A stretch of DNA of 64,000 bases from Leisingera caerulea DSM 24564 (GTDB lineage Bacteria; Pseudomonadota; Alphaproteobacteria; Rhodobacterales; Rhodobacteraceae): contig NZ_KI421514.1 of assembly GCF_000473325.1 (NCBI RefSeq), forward strand, positions 314,340 to 378,339. Reading direction: 5' to 3'. Every line of letters starts with the position of its first letter. The stretch's first letter is position 1. The notes below the pieces were generated by a model. That model did not search any database. It had not been told where the DNA came from and saw only the letters and a list, made by a program, of their open reading frames with translations. Below, one piece after another: positions 24,891 through 34,316 of the stretch. Both the position numbers and the translations under genes were made by a program.

Positions 24891-25315
24891 GACGCTGATT
24901 CGCTCTTCATGTCAATTTTTGCCGCGAATCTGTGCGAATCTCCCGCATCTGCCCGGGAATCACGCAGCCCGGCCCCCTGCCGTCTGCCGGCATGGCGGAC
25001 CCAGCGGGCCCGGCTGGCCGGGTTCTCCAGGATCTCAGCGATTTGCCCGGCGGCATTGCCGGGCACCCGGCCCGTCACCTGCCCGCCCGCGCGCACTTTG
25101 ACGCCCTGCCCGTCAGCGGTGATTTCCACCACCGGGGAGAAGCCGCGCAAGGACTGCAGCTTGCGCCACATGTCCTGACGGATCTGATGCGCCAGCCGCA
25201 GCGGGTCGCCCGCGGGCAGCGCAGTCTCCGCCGCCACATCAAACCGCGCAGGCAGGCGGCGCGACAGCGTCAGGCTGCTGTCCGTGCGGATGATATGCCA
25301 ACGGCTGCGGGTCAC
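24887..25315 (-). CDS. Conserved hypothetical protein (GTG start)
   Basis: 142 residues beginning with GTG at 25315. Contents: TRSRWHIIRTDSSLTLSRRL, a helical region HQIRQDMWRKLQSLRGFSP, and VVEITADGQGVKVRAGGQV, which looks like a short beta sheet. It is basic overall, with no signal peptide. No family recognised. It lies 79 bases downstream of pccB, after its terminator, and is coupled by a four-base overlap to the DUF6497 gene. Confidence 0.65.
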   Translation of the reverse strand: MTRSRWHIIRTDSSLTLSRRLPARFDVAAETALPAGDPLRLAHQIRQDMWRKLQSLRGFSPVVEITADGQGVKVRAGGQVTGRVPGNAAGQIAEILENPASRARWVRHAGRRQGAGLRDSRADAGDSHRFAAKIDMKSESAS

Positions 25316-25326
25316 GCTCCCGGATC

Positions 25327-25380
25327 CTTCTTCTTCTGGCTAAAAATATCCTCGGGGGTGCGGGGGCAGACAGCCCCCGC
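25327..25380 (-). terminator. pccB terminator plus dispersed repeat (copy A)
   Basis: On the minus strand, an 8-bp perfect stem with a 5-base loop (25360-25380) starts 14 bases after pccB and is followed by CCCCCGAGGATATTTTTAG. The tail (25327-25358) is the first of three copies of a repeat built on GGATATTT...CCAGA-GAA; the others are at 39602-39634 and 59365-59398. Confidence 0.7.
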
Positions 25381-25394
25381 TGAGACATCCGCTG

Positions 25395-26927
<1,533 letters not shown>

Positions 26928-27000
26928 GGCACATGTCCCCTGTAGATGTCACCGGGACCATATATTGCGCAGGCGCTGAGCCAAAGGACATTATCGCAAA

Positions 27001-27019
27001 TTTGCAAACCGTTTGCATA
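27001..27019 (-). promoter_or_regulatory. Putative PccR/ScfR binding site upstream of pccB
   Basis: TTTGCAAA, three bases, then TTTGCATA, 74 bases before the pccB ATG. In Rhodobacter sphaeroides the ScfR-family regulator PccR recognises paired TTTGCAAA elements upstream of pccB (established; as I recall with a 4-base spacer, so the 3-base spacing here is slightly different). Related half-sites occur before the ScfR-family gene at 32928. Confidence 0.65.
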
Positions 27020-27095
27020 CGCTGTTGGCAAAGTTGAAAATCAGCAAAGTCACGGCGCAGCCCGCCGCCGTGTTCCGGCGGCAAGGAATGCGGTT

Positions 27096-28304
27096 TCAGG
27101 CGGCTTTTGCGATGTCCGCCATCTGCCGCAGCGCGCTGGTCAGCGGCGCCTTGACCGGGACGGAGACGCCAAACGGGTTGTCCTCGACCATGCCGATCAC
27201 CGGGTCGTCCTTGAGGAACTTGAGATAGGCCGCAATCTGGGCCAGCAACGCCTGCGCCGCGGCCTTGCGGGCATCGCCGGTGGCGGATTTCATCTCGAAC
27301 AGCGCCTTCATCAGGGCGGTCTGGTTGCCGTCGGTGACGCCTGCCAGACCGGCATCGGCGATCTGCGCCAGCACCGGGTGGTTCTGCGCCCTGAGCGCAT
27401 CCTGCAGGCTGGAGACGCCGCGGTCGACGTCCTCCTTGGCGGCCTGCCAGATCTCCATCGGGTCGGCCTGCGGCGCCGCCGCCTCTGCCGGGGCGTCCAG
27501 CGCCTTGACCAGCGCCTTGAGGCCCTCTGCAGCTGCCGGCAGGGCGCCCGCCTTCAGACTGGCGGCGATGCCCCGCGCCTGTTCCGCAAGCGGTGCGGCC
27601 TGCTCCGGCGGCAGGGTCTTGATCCGGGCCGCCTGCGCCGCCAGCAGCTTGCTGAGCTTGGCGGCCTGTTCGGACTGCGCCGGGGCCGGTTTGGGCTGCG
27701 CCTGCAGCTTGGCCAGCGCGGCCTCCAGCCGGTCGAGCCGGGCGGCGCAGCCGTCGTGGTCGCCCTGCCTCAGCAGCTTGGCACTGGCCTTGATTTCCGG
27801 CGCCAGCTTGCCCGCCAGCTCCGGATTGCCCAGCGCCTTGACCGCGCCCGCAGCGGCGGCGATGCGTTGTTTCAGAGCGGCTGCCGCGCCATCATCCGCC
27901 TGCGGCGGCGCGCTGGCTTCAACCGCTTCGGCGTCGTCATCCGGCAAGCTGTCCTCGTCGATGATGCTGCCGTCGGGGCCGACCAGCACCGGCTTGAACT
28001 TGACCATGCCTTCGGCTTTGAACCGCTTCTTCAACTGCTTGATGATGCCCTTCACGGGCTTTTCAGGCTGCAGGAAGACCTCGTTCTCCTCCACCCGAAG
28101 GGTGCCGAAGCAGGTTTTCTTGATGCCCGGCATTTTCTTCATGTCGCCGCGCAGCACCTTGCCGGGCTTGCGCAGGTCGATCATCAGGCCGCAACTCTCC
28201 GGCTTGCCCGCCAGTCCGAAAGCAAAGGGCAGCTCGTTGCCGCTGGCCTTGGACTTTTTCAGCAGTTTCAGGACGGCGTCGGACTCAAAAGCCTGGTCTG
28301 GCAT
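27096..28304 (-). CDS. Third gene of an uncharacterised cassette; N-terminal domain plus Ala-rich helical repeats
   Basis: 402 residues from the ATG at 28304. The first ~120 residues form a compact alpha/beta region with ELPFAFGLAGKPESCGLMID, LRKPGKVLRGDMKKMPG and CFGTLRVEENEVFLQPEKPV. An acidic linker (DEDSLPDDDAEAVEASAP) follows, then about 250 residues of Ala/Leu/Lys helical repeats similar in style to those of the 922-residue protein in the same cassette. There is no signal peptide, membrane segment or known motif. It starts ten bases after the middle gene, so it is the last gene of a three-gene operon. It might be a chaperone, adaptor or immunity partner of the large protein; this is inference only. 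Confidence 0.75.
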   Translation of the reverse strand: MPDQAFESDAVLKLLKKSKASGNELPFAFGLAGKPESCGLMIDLRKPGKVLRGDMKKMPGIKKTCFGTLRVEENEVFLQPEKPVKGIIKQLKKRFKAEGMVKFKPVLVGPDGSIIDEDSLPDDDAEAVEASAPPQADDGAAAALKQRIAAAAGAVKALGNPELAGKLAPEIKASAKLLRQGDHDGCAARLDRLEAALAKLQAQPKPAPAQSEQAAKLSKLLAAQAARIKTLPPEQAAPLAEQARGIAASLKAGALPAAAEGLKALVKALDAPAEAAAPQADPMEIWQAAKEDVDRGVSSLQDALRAQNHPVLAQIADAGLAGVTDGNQTALMKALFEMKSATGDARKAAAQALLAQIAAYLKFLKDDPVIGMVEDNPFGVSVPVKAPLTSALRQMADIAKAA

Positions 28305-28314
28305 GGCATCCCCC

Positions 28315-28695
28315 CTAGCTGGCGCCGGTAACGGCGGCCCACTCCTCAGCACTCATATCAACAAACTCCAGATCCGCCTCATCGCCCGGTTCCGACAGCG
28401 GCTGGTCCGGCCAGATCATCCCGTAAGCGCGGCGGAACAGCGCCTGCAGCTCCGCCTCGTCAAAGGGGTACTGCTGGCCTGCGAACTGGCCGATGCGGCC
28501 GCGCGGGCTGGCGATCAGGGAGTCCAGCGCCAGCCGCAGCCAGTCGAGGTTGCCTTCGTTGCGGGCGCGCTTGTGCATCGCACGGATGTCGGCATCGAAC
28601 TGGGAGAGGTCGGCCATCGGATCGGGCGCGTTGACGGCGCGGCCCATGGTCAGCAGCCGCGTGTAGCCCGCGATCAGTTCCTTGCGGATTTTCAT
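28315..28695 (-). CDS. Small acidic-tailed protein, middle gene of the cassette (candidate immunity or adaptor)
   Basis: 126 residues, MKIRKELIAGYTRLLTMGR, then mostly helical (SQFDADIRAMHKRARNEGNLDWLRL), with FDEAELQALFRRAYGMIWPD, and an acidic C-terminus (EPGDEADLEFVDMSAEEW). The ATG overlaps the stop of the 922-residue gene by four bases (ATGA), so the two are made together. Size, acidity and tight coupling directly after a large protein with a toxin-like C-terminus are what an immunity gene would show, but no family is recognised and an adaptor role is equally open. Confidence 0.72.
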   Translation of the reverse strand: MKIRKELIAGYTRLLTMGRAVNAPDPMADLSQFDADIRAMHKRARNEGNLDWLRLALDSLIASPRGRIGQFAGQQYPFDEAELQALFRRAYGMIWPDQPLSEPGDEADLEFVDMSAEEWAAVTGAS

Positions 28696-31460
28696 GGGAT
28701 CATGTTCCCCGGATTGGCGTTGGTGTAGGTCTTGGTTTCATTGTCCCAGCCATCGGCGACCGGGTATTGCTGCATCATCACCCAGCGGCCCGGGATCTTG
28801 GTTGGGGCGGTGCCGTGCCGGGCCTTGTACTTCTCGGCGTAATCCGCGTTGTCCTGGGTTTCTTCCTCCGGGTAGTGGGTCCCGGGATTAGGATGACCGG
28901 TGGTCTCATCCGGCAGATCCTCCGGTTCCCAGATGAAGTTCACATAGGCGCGGGTCAGCCCCTCAACTTCCTCGAAGCTTTCATAGGTCTTGTCGGGCAC
29001 GGGTTCGTCATCCATGCGGACGTGCTTCTTGTGGCCGATGTAGGCCTTGTCGATCGCGCGGCCGTGCTCGACGGTGAAATCGGCGTTTTCTTCCGGCCAG
29101 TCCAGCGGGTCGCCCGAGACGTCCATTTCGGCCGCGTCGATGTCGATGCCCTTGGCCTTGGCCGCCTGGGCCGCCAGCTCGCGGCCTGCCAGCCAGTCCT
29201 GCGCGCTGTGGAACTTGGACGACGCGCCGGTGTAGGAGCGCTCATCATCCGATTTTGCATTCGGCGGCTTGCCGGTCTTCAGGCGCTCGATCAGGTCATC
29301 GTCGCTGACCCCTGGGCCGTGGCGGTCCAGCGAGTGGCCCGCGTTGCTGCCTACGCCATCCTTCGCCTCGCAGTCCTCGGCGGCCTCCGTGCAAAGCGCC
29401 TGCAAGTCGGTGCGGATGCCGTCAAACGCGGTCTTGGCCGTGGTGAAATCCGGCTTCTTCGCCTCGTCCTCAGCCGCCGCAACCCGCTCCTTGAAGGGGG
29501 TCAGCTTGGCGGCGTCCGTGCCTGCCCGCTCCAGCGCCTTGAGGATGCCATTCACCTGGAAACGGGCGGTGGCCATCGGCTTGACCTCTGCCAGCAGTTT
29601 CTGGTGGGTGTCCAGCAGCAGGAAGGCGTCGCCGTATTCCTTGTCACTGTCCGCCCGGTCTGTGGCGGTTTTCAGTGACGCATCCAGCGCATCCTCTGCC
29701 GGGGCCAGCTTGAGGTATTTTTTGGTCCGGCTGTGCTCTTGCTGAACTTTGGCCAGCTTGGCGCGGTAGTCCGCCATCGCCAGCACCAGGTCCATGTAAT
29801 CAGTACCGTCCAGCACCGCCTGCAGGTCGCTGGCGGCCTTGGCCGGATCGCCGCCGCGCGCCGTCACCTCTGCCGCCTTGATTGCCGCATCCAGCGGGCC
29901 GGTCAGCTCATCCGCATCGCCGGGCAGCACCGCCAGCAGATCCCGGGCCGCCGTTCTGGTGTCCAGATAGGCGGGCATCGCGCGCAGCTTTGCCAAAGCG
30001 TCAGGCACGGCTGCCACCGCCTCCGGGTATTTCTTCGCGGCCAGGGCGTCCGCCACCGGTTTCTGAAATTCATATGCTGCAGCAGCTGGATGGCGCTGCA
30101 GGATCAGCGCCATCTCGCGGCGTTCGTCCACCACCTTCTCCAGCTTGAACAGCTGGTCAAGTTTGGCGTGATACTGCGGCGCGCCGGTGTCCTTGTCGAA
30201 GTTGTCCGCATCCGCCAGGAGTTTATGCGCGTCCCAGGTGGCTTTCAGATCGCTCAGCTCCGGGTCGGTCAGGACCTTGCTGAGGGCCTGGTATTTCTTT
30301 TCCAGCGCCTTGACGATCTGCTTGGACAGGCTCTTGCGCATCAGGGCGCGGTTGGACTTCTCCCAGGCCTTGAGGTCGGCCATCGCCCCGGCGGGGTCAT
30401 TGGTGCCCTTGAATTTCTGCTTGGTTTCGGCCGCCGCCAGGGTATCGCGGAACCCCTGGTCCGCCCGGAGAGAGCCATCGAAGCTGCGCATGTAGCGGGC
30501 CAGTGCGCCGCGCTCCTGGGAGCTGTAGGCGATCAGCTCCTGCACCAGCGCCTCCGCTTCGGTGAATTTCTGCTCCTTATAGGCCTTTTTCTTGGCGTTC
30601 TTCAGGTGGTTGCGGTAGTCCCGGGCATCCGGCACCGCACTGGCAAGGATGAATTCGCAGCGGTCATGGGCGTTTGCCATATAGTCCGCCAGCAGCGCGT
30701 CAAAGCTGAGCGCCTTGGCCAGGTCCCCTTCATCGCCGAGGTTGGCCTTCCAGCCCTCCAGCGCCGTCCTGGCAGCGCCGAAAGCGCCGGTTTCGGAATG
30801 CCCGGCTGCGGTTTTCATCCGGGCGCTGCGGTCATCCTCTGCGGCGTCCTTGGCGCCGCCGTTCATCGCGGCAATCAGCGCCAGCGTGCCGCGGGTCCAG
30901 TTGTCGAAAAACTGGCCGTAGGCATGCGCGGCCTCCGCCTGGACGGTGATGTCCTTGGCCGATGCCTCCACAGCCTCGAAGTCAGACGCTGTGACAGCGG
31001 CCGCCATCGCCTTGTGCGCCGCCTTGATCAGCCCTTCGAGATAGGTGAAGGCGCCCTGGTCGAGGCTGTCGCGCACTGCTTTGAATTTCTGTTCCGCCGC
31101 GGCAACGGCGGCCTGCGCCTTGTCCCGGGCTGCGGCAGTGGCCAGCTGCGCGGCGATCTGGCTGGACAGGTCCTGGATATCGCTGTCGATCTGACCGAAG
31201 GCCTCCACCCCGCCCGCACTTATGATTTCCTTTTTCAGCGCCTTGCGCCCGCCCGCCAGGCTGCGCCGTGCGCCGGAGCTGAGCGCGGCGGGGATGGGGA
31301 TCTTGGCCAGTTCCGCCAGCGCCGCCTTACGCCGGGCGTCCAGTTCCTCATCGCCGGGATCCGGCATATCCGGCATGGTCCAGGCCTTGACGGCATAAAA
31401 CCGTTCTGCCCATTGGCGGATGGCCGGGTTGTTGGCAAGCGGATCCGGGGTATTGGCCAT
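28692..31460 (-). CDS. Large helical-repeat protein with toxin-like C-terminal domain
   Basis: 922 residues, no signal peptide or membrane helix. Residues about 1-690 are Ala/Lys/Leu-rich helical units of roughly 70-90 residues (for example FTEAEALVQELIAYSSQERG and FDKDTGAPQYHAKLDQLFKL). From about residue 702 the composition changes to Gly/His/Asp/Pro-rich: GHSLDRHGPGVSDDDLIERL (708-727), then GASSKFHSAQDWLAGRELA, and a tail with YVNFIWEPEDLPD and IPGRWVMMQQYP. His709, Arg713, His714 and the SSKF element (747-750) recall C-terminal nuclease domains of polymorphic toxins, but I cannot name the family. It heads a three-gene operon lying between pccB and the divergent MFS gene. No secretion genes (VgrG, PAAR, TpsB) are in view. 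Confidence 0.8.
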   Translation of the reverse strand: MANTPDPLANNPAIRQWAERFYAVKAWTMPDMPDPGDEELDARRKAALAELAKIPIPAALSSGARRSLAGGRKALKKEIISAGGVEAFGQIDSDIQDLSSQIAAQLATAAARDKAQAAVAAAEQKFKAVRDSLDQGAFTYLEGLIKAAHKAMAAAVTASDFEAVEASAKDITVQAEAAHAYGQFFDNWTRGTLALIAAMNGGAKDAAEDDRSARMKTAAGHSETGAFGAARTALEGWKANLGDEGDLAKALSFDALLADYMANAHDRCEFILASAVPDARDYRNHLKNAKKKAYKEQKFTEAEALVQELIAYSSQERGALARYMRSFDGSLRADQGFRDTLAAAETKQKFKGTNDPAGAMADLKAWEKSNRALMRKSLSKQIVKALEKKYQALSKVLTDPELSDLKATWDAHKLLADADNFDKDTGAPQYHAKLDQLFKLEKVVDERREMALILQRHPAAAAYEFQKPVADALAAKKYPEAVAAVPDALAKLRAMPAYLDTRTAARDLLAVLPGDADELTGPLDAAIKAAEVTARGGDPAKAASDLQAVLDGTDYMDLVLAMADYRAKLAKVQQEHSRTKKYLKLAPAEDALDASLKTATDRADSDKEYGDAFLLLDTHQKLLAEVKPMATARFQVNGILKALERAGTDAAKLTPFKERVAAAEDEAKKPDFTTAKTAFDGIRTDLQALCTEAAEDCEAKDGVGSNAGHSLDRHGPGVSDDDLIERLKTGKPPNAKSDDERSYTGASSKFHSAQDWLAGRELAAQAAKAKGIDIDAAEMDVSGDPLDWPEENADFTVEHGRAIDKAYIGHKKHVRMDDEPVPDKTYESFEEVEGLTRAYVNFIWEPEDLPDETTGHPNPGTHYPEEETQDNADYAEKYKARHGTAPTKIPGRWVMMQQYPVADGWDNETKTYTNANPGNMIP

Positions 31461-31640
31461 GTATCACCTCGACATAAAAAAGGGGCGGCCTTGGGAAAGG
31501 CGCGAAAACATGCGGCGCCTGAGCAACCATAGGCGGCGCCGCGAATTTCTTGCAAGGGTCTTTTGACGCTGCGGCACCTGTGTGCGTGGCTGCGCAGAGG
31601 ATTGATGGACAACGCCGGCCGACTGCTCTAACCGGATTGT

Positions 31641-32852
31641 ATGTCCACATATGATACCCGGGCCCCCGGCCAGCGGACGCCTCCGCGCATCTTCACCCTG
31701 ATCCTGCTGGCAGGCCTGTCGGCGCTTGGCATGAACCTGCATCTGCCGTCGCTGGCGGGCATGTCCGAGTATTACGCGGTCGACTACCGGGTGATGCAGC
31801 TGTCGGTGGCGCTGTATCTGGCGGGCAATGCGGTGGTGCAGATCTTTGTGGGGCCGATTTCCGATCAGATGGGGCGGCGGCCGGTAATCCTGACCAGCAT
31901 CGTGCTGTTCCTGCTGGCCACGCTGGGCTGTATCTGTGCGCCGACGGCAGAGATATTCCTGATGTTCCGGGTGGCCCAGACGGCGGTGGCGGCCACCATG
32001 GTGCTGAGCCGCGCCGCGGTGCGCGATCTTTATGACACCAACGAGGCCGCCAGCATGATCGGCTATGTCACCATGGGCATGGCAATCGTGCCGATGATCG
32101 GCCCGGCAATCGGCGGCTTTCTGGATCAGTGGATGGGATGGAAGGCGAATTTCTGGATGCTGTTCCTGGTCGGCGCGGCAACGCTGATGATCACCTTCAC
32201 CGATTTCGGCGAGACCGCGCACAAGAGCGGCAAGACGCTGATGGCGCAGTTCCGCGAGTATCCCGAGCTGCTGCGCTCGCCGCGGTTCTGGGGCTATTCG
32301 CTGTCTTCGGGCCTCGCCTCGGGCGCGTTCTTTGCCTACCTGGGCGGCGCGCCGTTTGTCGGCACCGAGGTTTACGGGCTGAACACGGCGGAGCTGGGCG
32401 TTTACTTCTCCGCGCCTGCAGTGGGGTACTTTGCGGGCAACTTCATTTCCGGCCGCTACTCCATGCGGCTGGGGGTCAACCGTATGGTGCTGTGGGGCTG
32501 CGTGATCAATGGCGGCGGGGTGCTGCTGTCGCTGCTGATTGCAATGGCGGGCGCGGACAGCGTGATAACCTTCTTCGGCCTCATGTGCTTTGTCGGCCTC
32601 GGCAATGGCATGGCGATCCCCAATGCCACTGCCGGCGCGATTTCGGTGCGGCCGCATCTGGCAGGCACCGCCTCCGGCCTCAGTGGCGCAATCATGATCG
32701 GCGCGGGCGCGGCGCTCAGCGCGTTTGCGGGGATGCTGCTGGTGCCGGGATCCACCGCGGTGCCGCTGCTGGTGATCATGTTCGCCACTGCCGCGTGCGG
32801 CCTGGTTGCGATCCTGCTGGTGGTCTGGCGGGAGCGGCAGATCCGCGCTTAA
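31641..32852 (+). CDS. MFS transporter, Bcr/CflA-like drug efflux family
   Basis: 403 residues with about twelve hydrophobic helices. The loop 2-3 motif GPISDQMGRRPVIL and the motif following helix 4 (VLSRAAVRDLY) are typical of the Bcr/CflA DHA1 subfamily, which exports drugs and small metabolites. The start at 31641 is the first ATG. It is divergent from the cassette gene at 31460 (180-base gap) and 75 bases before the ScfR-family regulator, which has its own TTTGCAAA half-sites, so co-regulation with propionate metabolism is possible but not shown. Confidence 0.88.
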   Translation: MSTYDTRAPGQRTPPRIFTLILLAGLSALGMNLHLPSLAGMSEYYAVDYRVMQLSVALYLAGNAVVQIFVGPISDQMGRRPVILTSIVLFLLATLGCICAPTAEIFLMFRVAQTAVAATMVLSRAAVRDLYDTNEAASMIGYVTMGMAIVPMIGPAIGGFLDQWMGWKANFWMLFLVGAATLMITFTDFGETAHKSGKTLMAQFREYPELLRSPRFWGYSLSSGLASGAFFAYLGGAPFVGTEVYGLNTAELGVYFSAPAVGYFAGNFISGRYSMRLGVNRMVLWGCVINGGGVLLSLLIAMAGADSVITFFGLMCFVGLGNGMAIPNATAGAISVRPHLAGTASGLSGAIMIGAGAALSAFAGMLLVPGSTAVPLLVIMFATAACGLVAILLVVWRERQIRA

Positions 32853-32879
32853 GCGCCGCCGCGGTCTTGCAGGCAGCCC

Positions 32880-32917
32880 TTTGCAATTATACTCTTCGCA
32901 GGAGTTTGATTTGCAAA
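32880..32917 (+). promoter_or_regulatory. TTTGCAAA-type half-sites before the ScfR-family gene
   Basis: TTTGCAAT at 32880-32887 and TTTGCAAA at 32910-32917, the second only ten bases before the regulator's ATG. The similarity to the pccB upstream pair suggests autoregulation. The 22-base spacing between half-sites differs from that pair. Confidence 0.5.
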
Positions 32918-32927
32918 GGCGCGCTTC

Positions 32928-34316
32928 ATGGCCACCCAGAAACTTTATGCCGGCGCCAAGCTGCGCGAGATGCGGCAGCGGCTGGAGCTGACGCAGAAGG
33001 ATTTTGCCGCCAAGCTGGGCGTCTCCCTGCCCTATCTGAACCAGATGGAGAATAACAACCGCCCGGTGTCGACCACGGTGGTGCTGGCGCTGGCGCAGGA
33101 ATTCGGCATGGATGTGACCGAATTGTCGGCTGGGGACAGCGAACGGCTGGTCAGCGACATGCGCGAGGCGATGGCGGATCCGGTGTTTGCGGATGACGCG
33201 CCGCCCCTGGCGGACCTGCGGCTGACCGCGTCGAACGCGCCGGCGCTGGCGCGGGCGTTTCTGACATTGCACCAGGCCTACCGCCAGACCCATGAACGCC
33301 TTGCCTCATTGGATGAGGCGCTGGGGCGGGAGGATGCGCGCATTCAGGCCAGCCCTTGGGAGGAGGTGCGGGATTTCTTCCATTATTGCGACAACTACAT
33401 CGACGCGGTGGACCGCGCGGCGGAGCATTTTGCCGCCACCAGCGATATCCGCGCCGCCGCGGTGGCGGAACTGGAGCGCGGCGGGGTTGCCGTGAAGCAG
33501 ACCGAGATGGAGGGGCTGCGCCACTTTGATGCGGAGGCGGGCGTGCTGCATCTGTCCAACCGCTCCGCCCCGCAGACGCAGCTGTTCCAGATGCTGCTGC
33601 AGGTCGCCCTGCTGCGGCAGAACCAGCTGCTGGAGGCAACGCTGGATTTTGCAAAGTTCCAGAGCGAGGAGGCCCGCGCCATCGCCAAGATCGGTCTGGC
33701 CAATTATTTCGCGGGGGCTGCCCTGATGCCCTACACCCGGTTTCTGGAGGCGGCGCAGGCCTGCCGCCACGACCTGGAGCTGCTGGCGATCCGTTTCGGC
33801 GCCTCGATCGAGCAGATTGCGCATAGGCTGTCGACGATGCAGCGGCCGGGCGCCAAGGGGGTTCCGTTTTTCTTCGTGCGGGTCGATCAGGCGGGCACCA
33901 TCACCAAGCGCCATTCGGCCACGCGGCTGCAGTTTGCCCGTTTCGGCGGCGCCTGCCCCTTGTGGAACGTGCACCGGGCGTTTGAGACGCCGGGCCGGTT
34001 CCTGCGCCAGCTGGCAGAGACGCCGGACGGGGTGCGCTATATCTCGCTGGCGCGGGATGTGTCGAAGCCCGGCGGCTCCTTCGGCGCGCCGGTGCGCCGC
34101 TATGCGATTGCCTTGGGGTGCGAGGTGCGCCACGCCGATGCGCTGGTCTATGCCGACGGGCTGGATGTCAGCAACGGCAGCGCCTATGAGCCGATTGGCA
34201 TTTCCTGCCGCATCTGCGAGCGCAAGGACTGCCATCAGCGCTCTGTCCCGCCGTTGGAGCGGCGGCTGACCATCAACACCGACCAGCGCGGCGTGCTGCC
34301 CTATGAGGTCAGCTGA
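32928..34316 (+). CDS. pccR: Short-chain fatty acyl-CoA regulator (ScfR family), PccR-like
   Basis: 462 residues. The N-terminal XRE helix-turn-helix is at about 8-62 (KLREMRQRLELTQKDFAAKL, PYLNQMENNNRPVS). The middle is an ImmA/IrrE-like/DUF2083 region (EGLRHFDAEAGVLHLSNRSA), and the C-terminus carries CRICERKDC (C-x2-C-x4-C), conserved in the RamB/ScfR family. ScfR proteins sense acyl-CoA thioesters and control the pathways using them; PccR of Rhodobacter activates pccB. Location within the pcc locus and the TTTGCAAA sites before pccB and before this gene make PccR the best call; RamB- or MccR-like specificity is the alternative. Confidence 0.82.
   Translation: MATQKLYAGAKLREMRQRLELTQKDFAAKLGVSLPYLNQMENNNRPVSTTVVLALAQEFGMDVTELSAGDSERLVSDMREAMADPVFADDAPPLADLRLTASNAPALARAFLTLHQAYRQTHERLASLDEALGREDARIQASPWEEVRDFFHYCDNYIDAVDRAAEHFAATSDIRAAAVAELERGGVAVKQTEMEGLRHFDAEAGVLHLSNRSAPQTQLFQMLLQVALLRQNQLLEATLDFAKFQSEEARAIAKIGLANYFAGAALMPYTRFLEAAQACRHDLELLAIRFGASIEQIAHRLSTMQRPGAKGVPFFFVRVDQAGTITKRHSATRLQFARFGGACPLWNVHRAFETPGRFLRQLAETPDGVRYISLARDVSKPGGSFGAPVRRYAIALGCEVRHADALVYADGLDVSNGSAYEPIGISCRICERKDCHQRSVPPLERRLTINTDQRGVLPYEVS

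Follow-up and report, generated by a model that had tools for sequence, protein, structure and literature searches.

What is the role of three tightly coupled genes, none of whose products falls into a known family, that lie between pccB and a divergent MFS gene in Leisingera caerulea DSM 24564? We analysed a 64,000-nucleotide stretch (positions 314,340 to 378,339 of contig NZ_KI421514.1, here contig C8 of a 5.34-Mb genome; hereafter the window) and conclude that the three genes (the trio) probably constitute an orphan cargo cassette of a type VI secretion system (T6SS), encoding an effector, its immunity protein and an adaptor. Coordinates, lengths, strand, overlap and gap proved to be as given in a first-pass annotation made from the letters, as did the location between pccB and the MFS/ScfR genes, these gene names being labels of that annotation:

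28692..31460, minus strand: gene for a 922-residue protein, predicted T6SS cargo effector with a helical stalk and a C-terminal toxin tip (open reading frame (ORF) list)
28315..28695, minus strand: gene for a 126-residue protein, predicted immunity protein (ORF list; ATGA overlap with the 922 gene)
28305-28314: intergenic gap of 10 bases from the 126 to the 402 gene
27096..28304, minus strand: gene for a 402-residue protein, predicted T6SS adaptor (ORF, profile and structure model)

An alternative GTG start of the 402 gene would give 418 residues; the gene caller favours the 402-residue start, and alignments of relatives begin cleanly at the corresponding methionine. The annotators had seen no known domain in the trio, and profile searches likewise placed none of the proteins in a known family (best E-values 0.09 in Pfam, 0.13 in NCBIfam and 0.14 in PHROGs). 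Searches of PDB sequences returned nothing significant, and matches there to phospholipase C (E 0.12-0.54) and eL22 (E 0.025) were dismissed as chance. In a plasmid collection the 922 protein had no match and the 402 protein had two (E 2e-18 and 6e-4), both annotated as hypothetical protein.

Conservation of the trio and its empty site

The trio travels as a unit. The 922 gene is present in 16 of 21 genomes of the genus, the 126 gene occurs in the same 16 and is adjacent every time, and a gene with the N-terminal domain of the 402 protein (N-domain) stands beside the pair in 16/16. No 126-type partner gene was found without a 922 gene among the trio-less genomes of the genus. Full-length relatives of the 922 protein occur at 10 loci with 55-85% identity, and the closest relatives in the contig search were eight Leisingera, one Tritonibacter and Roseobacter GAI101. 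The trio is also intact at loci L010 and L011 and in genome G175. In a family-wide sample of 394 genomes, mostly one per genus, the 922 protein matched in two, G000 and G175, and the distant trio of G175 is kept at 26, 46 and 40% identity (922, 126 and 402 proteins, respectively). Versus six relatives, dN/dS of the stalk, the tip and the 126 and 402 genes is 0.08-0.34, and versus four relatives that of pccB is 0.02-0.07; in the distant pairs with L010 and L011, dN of the tip and of the 126 gene is about half that of the stalk.

In all eight Leisingera loci examined the gene order is ScfR-MFS-trio-pccB, so that the trio lies next to pccB throughout (in three loci with one gene intervening), as an accessory operon of the propionate pathway would. 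We give this explanation next to no credence, since the flanks in L010 and L011 differ from those in Leisingera and since in 5/5 trio-less genomes of the genus pccB is present, together with the MFS gene, and the trio is missing (blastn of window positions 25301-33000 against L108-L112). The propionate link is therefore positional, as had been suspected. The limits of the missing stretch are as follows:

27053..31603, no strand: segment absent from the corresponding site of relatives that lack the trio (L108 sets the limits, blastn)

At three of the eight Leisingera loci (L004, L005 and L007) an extra opposite-strand gene of 192 residues lies between the 402 gene and pccB, and the trio-less genome G401 (L111) has an additional MFS-like gene at the trio site; on these grounds this site is a possible hotspot for insertions.

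The N-domain of the 402 protein and its association with T6SS

The structure model of the 402 protein (mean pLDDT, predicted local distance difference test, 73.9) comprises a compact alpha/beta domain (residues 8-108) followed by helices (residues 139-402), which bears out the earlier description of a compact domain joined to a helical part. Profiles delimit two segments:

27951..28289, minus strand: candidate N-terminal delivery domain, residues 6-118 (hidden Markov model; A1 profile)
27120..27455, minus strand: C-terminal helical domain, residues 284-395 (hidden Markov model; common to adaptors beside different large proteins)

DUF4123, DUF1795 and DUF2169 are known T6SS adaptor families; a Pfam scan of the 402 protein found no such family and gave FliT only (E 0.49). 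Foldseek searches with the 402 and tip models returned no E below 0.06, and VIA-align of the 402 model gave mostly helical bundles (McpS, talin, designed repeats), which we read as a common arrangement; human phosphohistidine phosphatase PHPT1 (2nmm, 2ai6) was counted among the closest known systems. The N-domain itself is about 110 residues long and lysine-rich (16% K), and iterated profiles built from residues 1-120 of the 402 protein detected 37 gene calls with it in the fetched loci, 35 of them distinct. No Pfam or NCBIfam model covers it (best E-values of 0.0006 and 0.0007, seen in no more than two of 30 members each), DUF4854 matching four members at E 0.03 or worse. No description of the domain was found in titles, abstract openings and some passages of the literature, preprints and most subscription papers lying outside that scope.

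N-domain genes occur in three settings: T6SS core clusters, stand-alone adaptors and fusions. First, in all seven fetched core clusters that cover the spot (L062 of the own genome, L066/L048, L068/L053, L069, L072, L074 and L076), an N-domain gene is divergent from a putative tssA, assigned by reading only, which is followed by tssB-tssC-hcp; in 19 of 34 genomes tssC has the N-domain next to it. Second, in 12 of one set of 20 regions an N-domain gene stands alone alongside one or more large ORFs of the same run, the others being three fusions, two core clusters, two runs of this kind with only the C-terminal part of the adaptor and one locus cut by a contig edge. Third, a further set of 20 regions yielded 17 N-domain proteins of 1,078-1,945 residues and three stand-alone genes (L094-L096); except for those of L084 and L087, the fusions (15 of 17) each have a gene of 130-250 residues behind them on the same strand. 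An HExxHAVDD motif lies close to the C-terminus of nine proteins (L050-L052, L077-L082), and the partner in L050, the only HExxH partner scanned, is a CpXC protein. Ten C-terminal stretches were scanned against Pfam: two scored above the cut-off for Endonuclea_NS_2, one gave a sub-threshold Peptidase_M15_3 match (E 0.003), and seven, including four HExxH proteins, had no match at E 0.01. The N-domain thus recurs in T6SS loci and at the start of large proteins, some of which end in toxin-type domains, and this, along with the co-occurrence of the three genes and the empty site, supports the first-pass comparison of the trio with toxin-immunity-adaptor units; of the two outcomes named there as refuting it, assignment to known unrelated families and failure to co-occur, neither came about.

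The same annotation had noted that the window holds no secretion machinery. This held for VipB, both matches being on another contig; as a T6SS lies on that contig, the picture changes, and delivery probably goes through a T6SS encoded outside the window. The cluster lies on contig C3 (108,530 bases) and seems to span the contig ends; its tssC was recognized by VipB and ten other proteins were confirmed by Pfam. For L. caerulea, a passage of PMC4337385 mentions a T6SS plasmid of 109 kb. VipB is present in 20 of 21 genomes of the genus, including all 16 trio carriers. In the family-wide sample, 35 of 394 genomes carry the N-domain (90 matches with the A1 profile of 30 rows), and VipB occurs in 34/35 of these versus 102/394 overall (p 2.7e-21), two or more VipB matches in 33/35 versus 51/394 (p 1.2e-32), with p-values that treat related genomes as independent. 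G027, without VipB, and G013, with one VipB and a weak N-domain match (E 8e-4), are the exceptions. Similarly, VipB was found in 21/21 genomes with a match to the 402 protein at E <=1e-3, a count drawn from 32 genomes with E up to 0.01; the 11 with E >1e-3 that were left out comprise eight without VipB and three with it (G128, G206 and G356), and G128 and G206 have the N-domain. Across 289 genomes sampled from the class, the N-domain was confined to G000 and G451, the latter from another family. Among the second VipB matches listed, the weak match in a long ORF would represent TssCL, the TssB-TssC fusion that passages of Suria 2022 (PMC9515649) describe in roseobacters, and a TssCL-type T6SS is probably what accompanies the N-domain.

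Several observations weigh against a cargo cassette. The trio and the T6SS are on different contigs; the 922 protein itself lacks an N-domain; and genome G027 has the N-domain and no VipB match. The HExxH proteins are called toxins on their motif, because the four scanned had no Pfam match, and several N-domain operons lack a toxin motif or a small partner, so the N-domain need not always mean toxin. One could also regard the N-domain as a structural or assembly part of the T6SS, and the 402 and 922 proteins as accessory machine parts without any toxin. The copies beside tssC and the operons in which two large proteins come without a small partner favour that explanation; fusions of the N-domain to NS-type nucleases and to HExxH proteins with small neighbours argue against it, as do the coupled small partner within the trio and the absence of the trio from four VipB-positive genomes of the genus. 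We judge it unlikely, and retain the cassette of effector, immunity protein and adaptor.

Operons with an N-domain adaptor and two large proteins (773-1,173 residues) but no small partner were seen at L035-L038, L042, L044, L046, L049 and L094; in seven of the loci whose C-termini were inspected, one of the two proteins has an N[SP]TL[SA]K...AYG-like stretch. These large proteins are perhaps other cargo or a machine part. Five fusions (L083, L085, L086, L089 and L093) have a common C-terminal part (H.F..LPN.PS ... AD[TS]NWG), without significant Pfam match in the three scanned (L083, L086 and L093), and a partner of 144-148 residues. The VipB-less genome G027 encodes an N-domain HExxH fusion (G027:C37, L079), either an effector without its T6SS or the sign of an assembly gap. 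G411, likewise from the genus, has at G411:C27:314803-315123 an N-domain match interrupted by three in-frame stops, a decayed copy. In the T6SS clusters at L065:3667-4521, L071:7195-8052 and L072:7259-8107, a protein of 282-285 residues is encoded directly 5' of the long sheath-type ORF; it reads like what we take to be an ion-channel segment.

The tip of the 922 protein and its small partner

The following parts of the 922 protein were distinguished:

29394..31460, minus strand: stalk, residues 1-689 (composition)
28695..29393, minus strand: predicted toxin tip, possibly RNase A-like, residues 690-922
29283..29336, minus strand: H709-x4-H714...R726 motif (H709, H714 and R726 invariant in 12/12 aligned sequences)
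28764..28772, minus strand: Q897-Q898-Y899, presumed position of Thr276/Tyr278 (aligned relatives)

As the annotators had remarked, stalk and tip differ in composition, with alanine at 21% versus 11%, aspartate plus glutamate at 15% versus 21% and an isoelectric point (pI) of 6.1 versus 4.6. Stalk residues 213-313 weakly match the mid-region of N-domain HExxH proteins (hhalign probability 71, score 56), one reversed control scoring 28 and 11 column-shuffled ones, a weak control, all <=28. The same tip occurs in all 12 aligned relatives without exchange, and in two distant pairs the stalk is less conserved than the tip; polymorphic, exchangeable tips are thus a property of the N-domain class and not of the 922 stalk.

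The top, isolated fold match of the tip model (VIA-align, best 1000 chains) was 5E3E, the contact-dependent growth inhibition (CDI) toxin complex CdiA-CT/CdiI of Yersinia kristensenii 33638. Judged by where the fold alignment begins and ends, and by the active site that passages of PMC9086364 describe, H714 and R726 would be the counterparts of His175 and Arg186; the trio, too, has a small coupled partner. The two differ in that no sequence match was found, in that the CdiA-CT chain has 113 residues and the tip is 120 residues longer, and in delivery, by CDI versus the T6SS proposed here. A ribonuclease of the RNase A-like type, acting in the cytoplasm of target cells, has about even odds as the reading of the tip. 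Against it, invariant Q897 would stand where CdiA-CT has Thr276, and residue 899 is Phe in two of the 12 aligned sequences (L010 and L034); the tip model reaches a mean pLDDT of 59.8 (five models, 36.6-59.8), with values below 50 at model residues 19-29, which contain H709 and H714; Foldseek returned nothing for it (best E 0.54); PF18431, the family of bacterial RNase A-like toxins, does not match; and the tip is acidic, whereas the RNA-binding surface of MafB2 is, in the passage concerned, positively charged. Given the weak model, the missing PF18431 match and an active site kept only in part, the chance is not far below even that the cassette is as proposed but its tip is another BECR-group RNase, has another activity or adopts an unrelated fold.

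A CDI toxin as best fold match also invites the idea that the trio is a toxin-immunity unit delivered otherwise, by CDI or an extracellular contractile system, with its T6SS association incidental. The Pfam scan, which does not cover signal peptides, gave no delivery domain, of CDI or otherwise, for the trio proteins, and the N-domain/VipB association (p 2.7e-21) speaks for T6SS; we regard delivery by another route as very improbable.

The 126 gene, whose start overlaps the 922 gene end through ATGA, is predicted to encode the translationally coupled immunity protein of the tip, a prediction from gene arrangement. Twelve small partner candidates (L039-L041, L052 and 8/15 in L077-L096) have a pI of 4.05-5.07; we do not use this acidity, seen in the candidates alone, as evidence. 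An equation of the L039-L041 C-termini (H-x3-RHT) with the window toxin (RHGP) was unsupported (hhalign E 0.056, probability 1%). A W...F...K.W motif is common to the N-termini of the 922 family and of the ~930-residue proteins of L035-L038, and we make no claim of kinship (hhalign probability 7, E 0.005). Within the first ~25 residues of many large proteins beside adaptors (L035-L049, L094), W(L/A/I) or F(L/I/V) forms the centre of a short motif, possibly a docking signal.

Proposed delivery and known parallels

The cassette would work as follows. The 402 protein, as a secreted or loading adaptor, would dock through its N-domain on the T6SS tube or spike and hold the 922 effector by its helical part, so that the N-domain would act in trans here and, in other Rhodobacteraceae, in one chain with a fused toxin. 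After firing, the tip would act in the target, perhaps on RNA, and the 126 protein would protect sister cells. Tentatively, and at somewhat less than even chance, we extend this to a clade-specific loading domain in Rhodobacteraceae with TssCL-type T6SS that launches long, stalked cargo (900-1,950 residues), one copy lying beside tssA and others fused to giant toxins or acting in trans via an adaptor, the trio being the split form with an RNase A-like toxin.

The mechanism resembles that of RIX-domain effectors and adaptors, which according to passages of Kanarek 2023 (PMC10435454) are widespread in Vibrionaceae: a family-restricted N-terminal domain is fused to diverse toxins or borne on adaptors, and three-gene adaptor-effector-immunity operons occur, a likeness that for the N-domain class lies in the genomic pattern. 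By description, RIX is arginine-rich and from Vibrionaceae, and the N-domain is lysine-rich and from Rhodobacteraceae. Unlike RIX, the N-domain also lies beside tssA, its cargo spans ~900-1,950 residues, the trio has the order effector-immunity-adaptor, and secretion of its proteins is a prediction. The authors of PMC10435454 speculate that other bacterial families own T6SS secretion domains; the N-domain, apparently undescribed in the literature searched, would be one, if our reading is true. The 2022 survey (PMC9515649) notes, in the passages concerned, that no roseobacter T6SS had by then been reported as verifiably active; there, effectors of Leisingera sp. ANG-M7 were sought by BLAST to known ones in SecReT6, and the N-domain is unmentioned. 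As a cargo marker, the N-domain would offer a search handle for roseobacter T6SS effectors (90 matches, 35/394 genomes). The squid-associated Leisingera strains JC1 and ANG-M7 (L007) carry the trio, which makes a T6SS role in squid-associated Leisingera testable.

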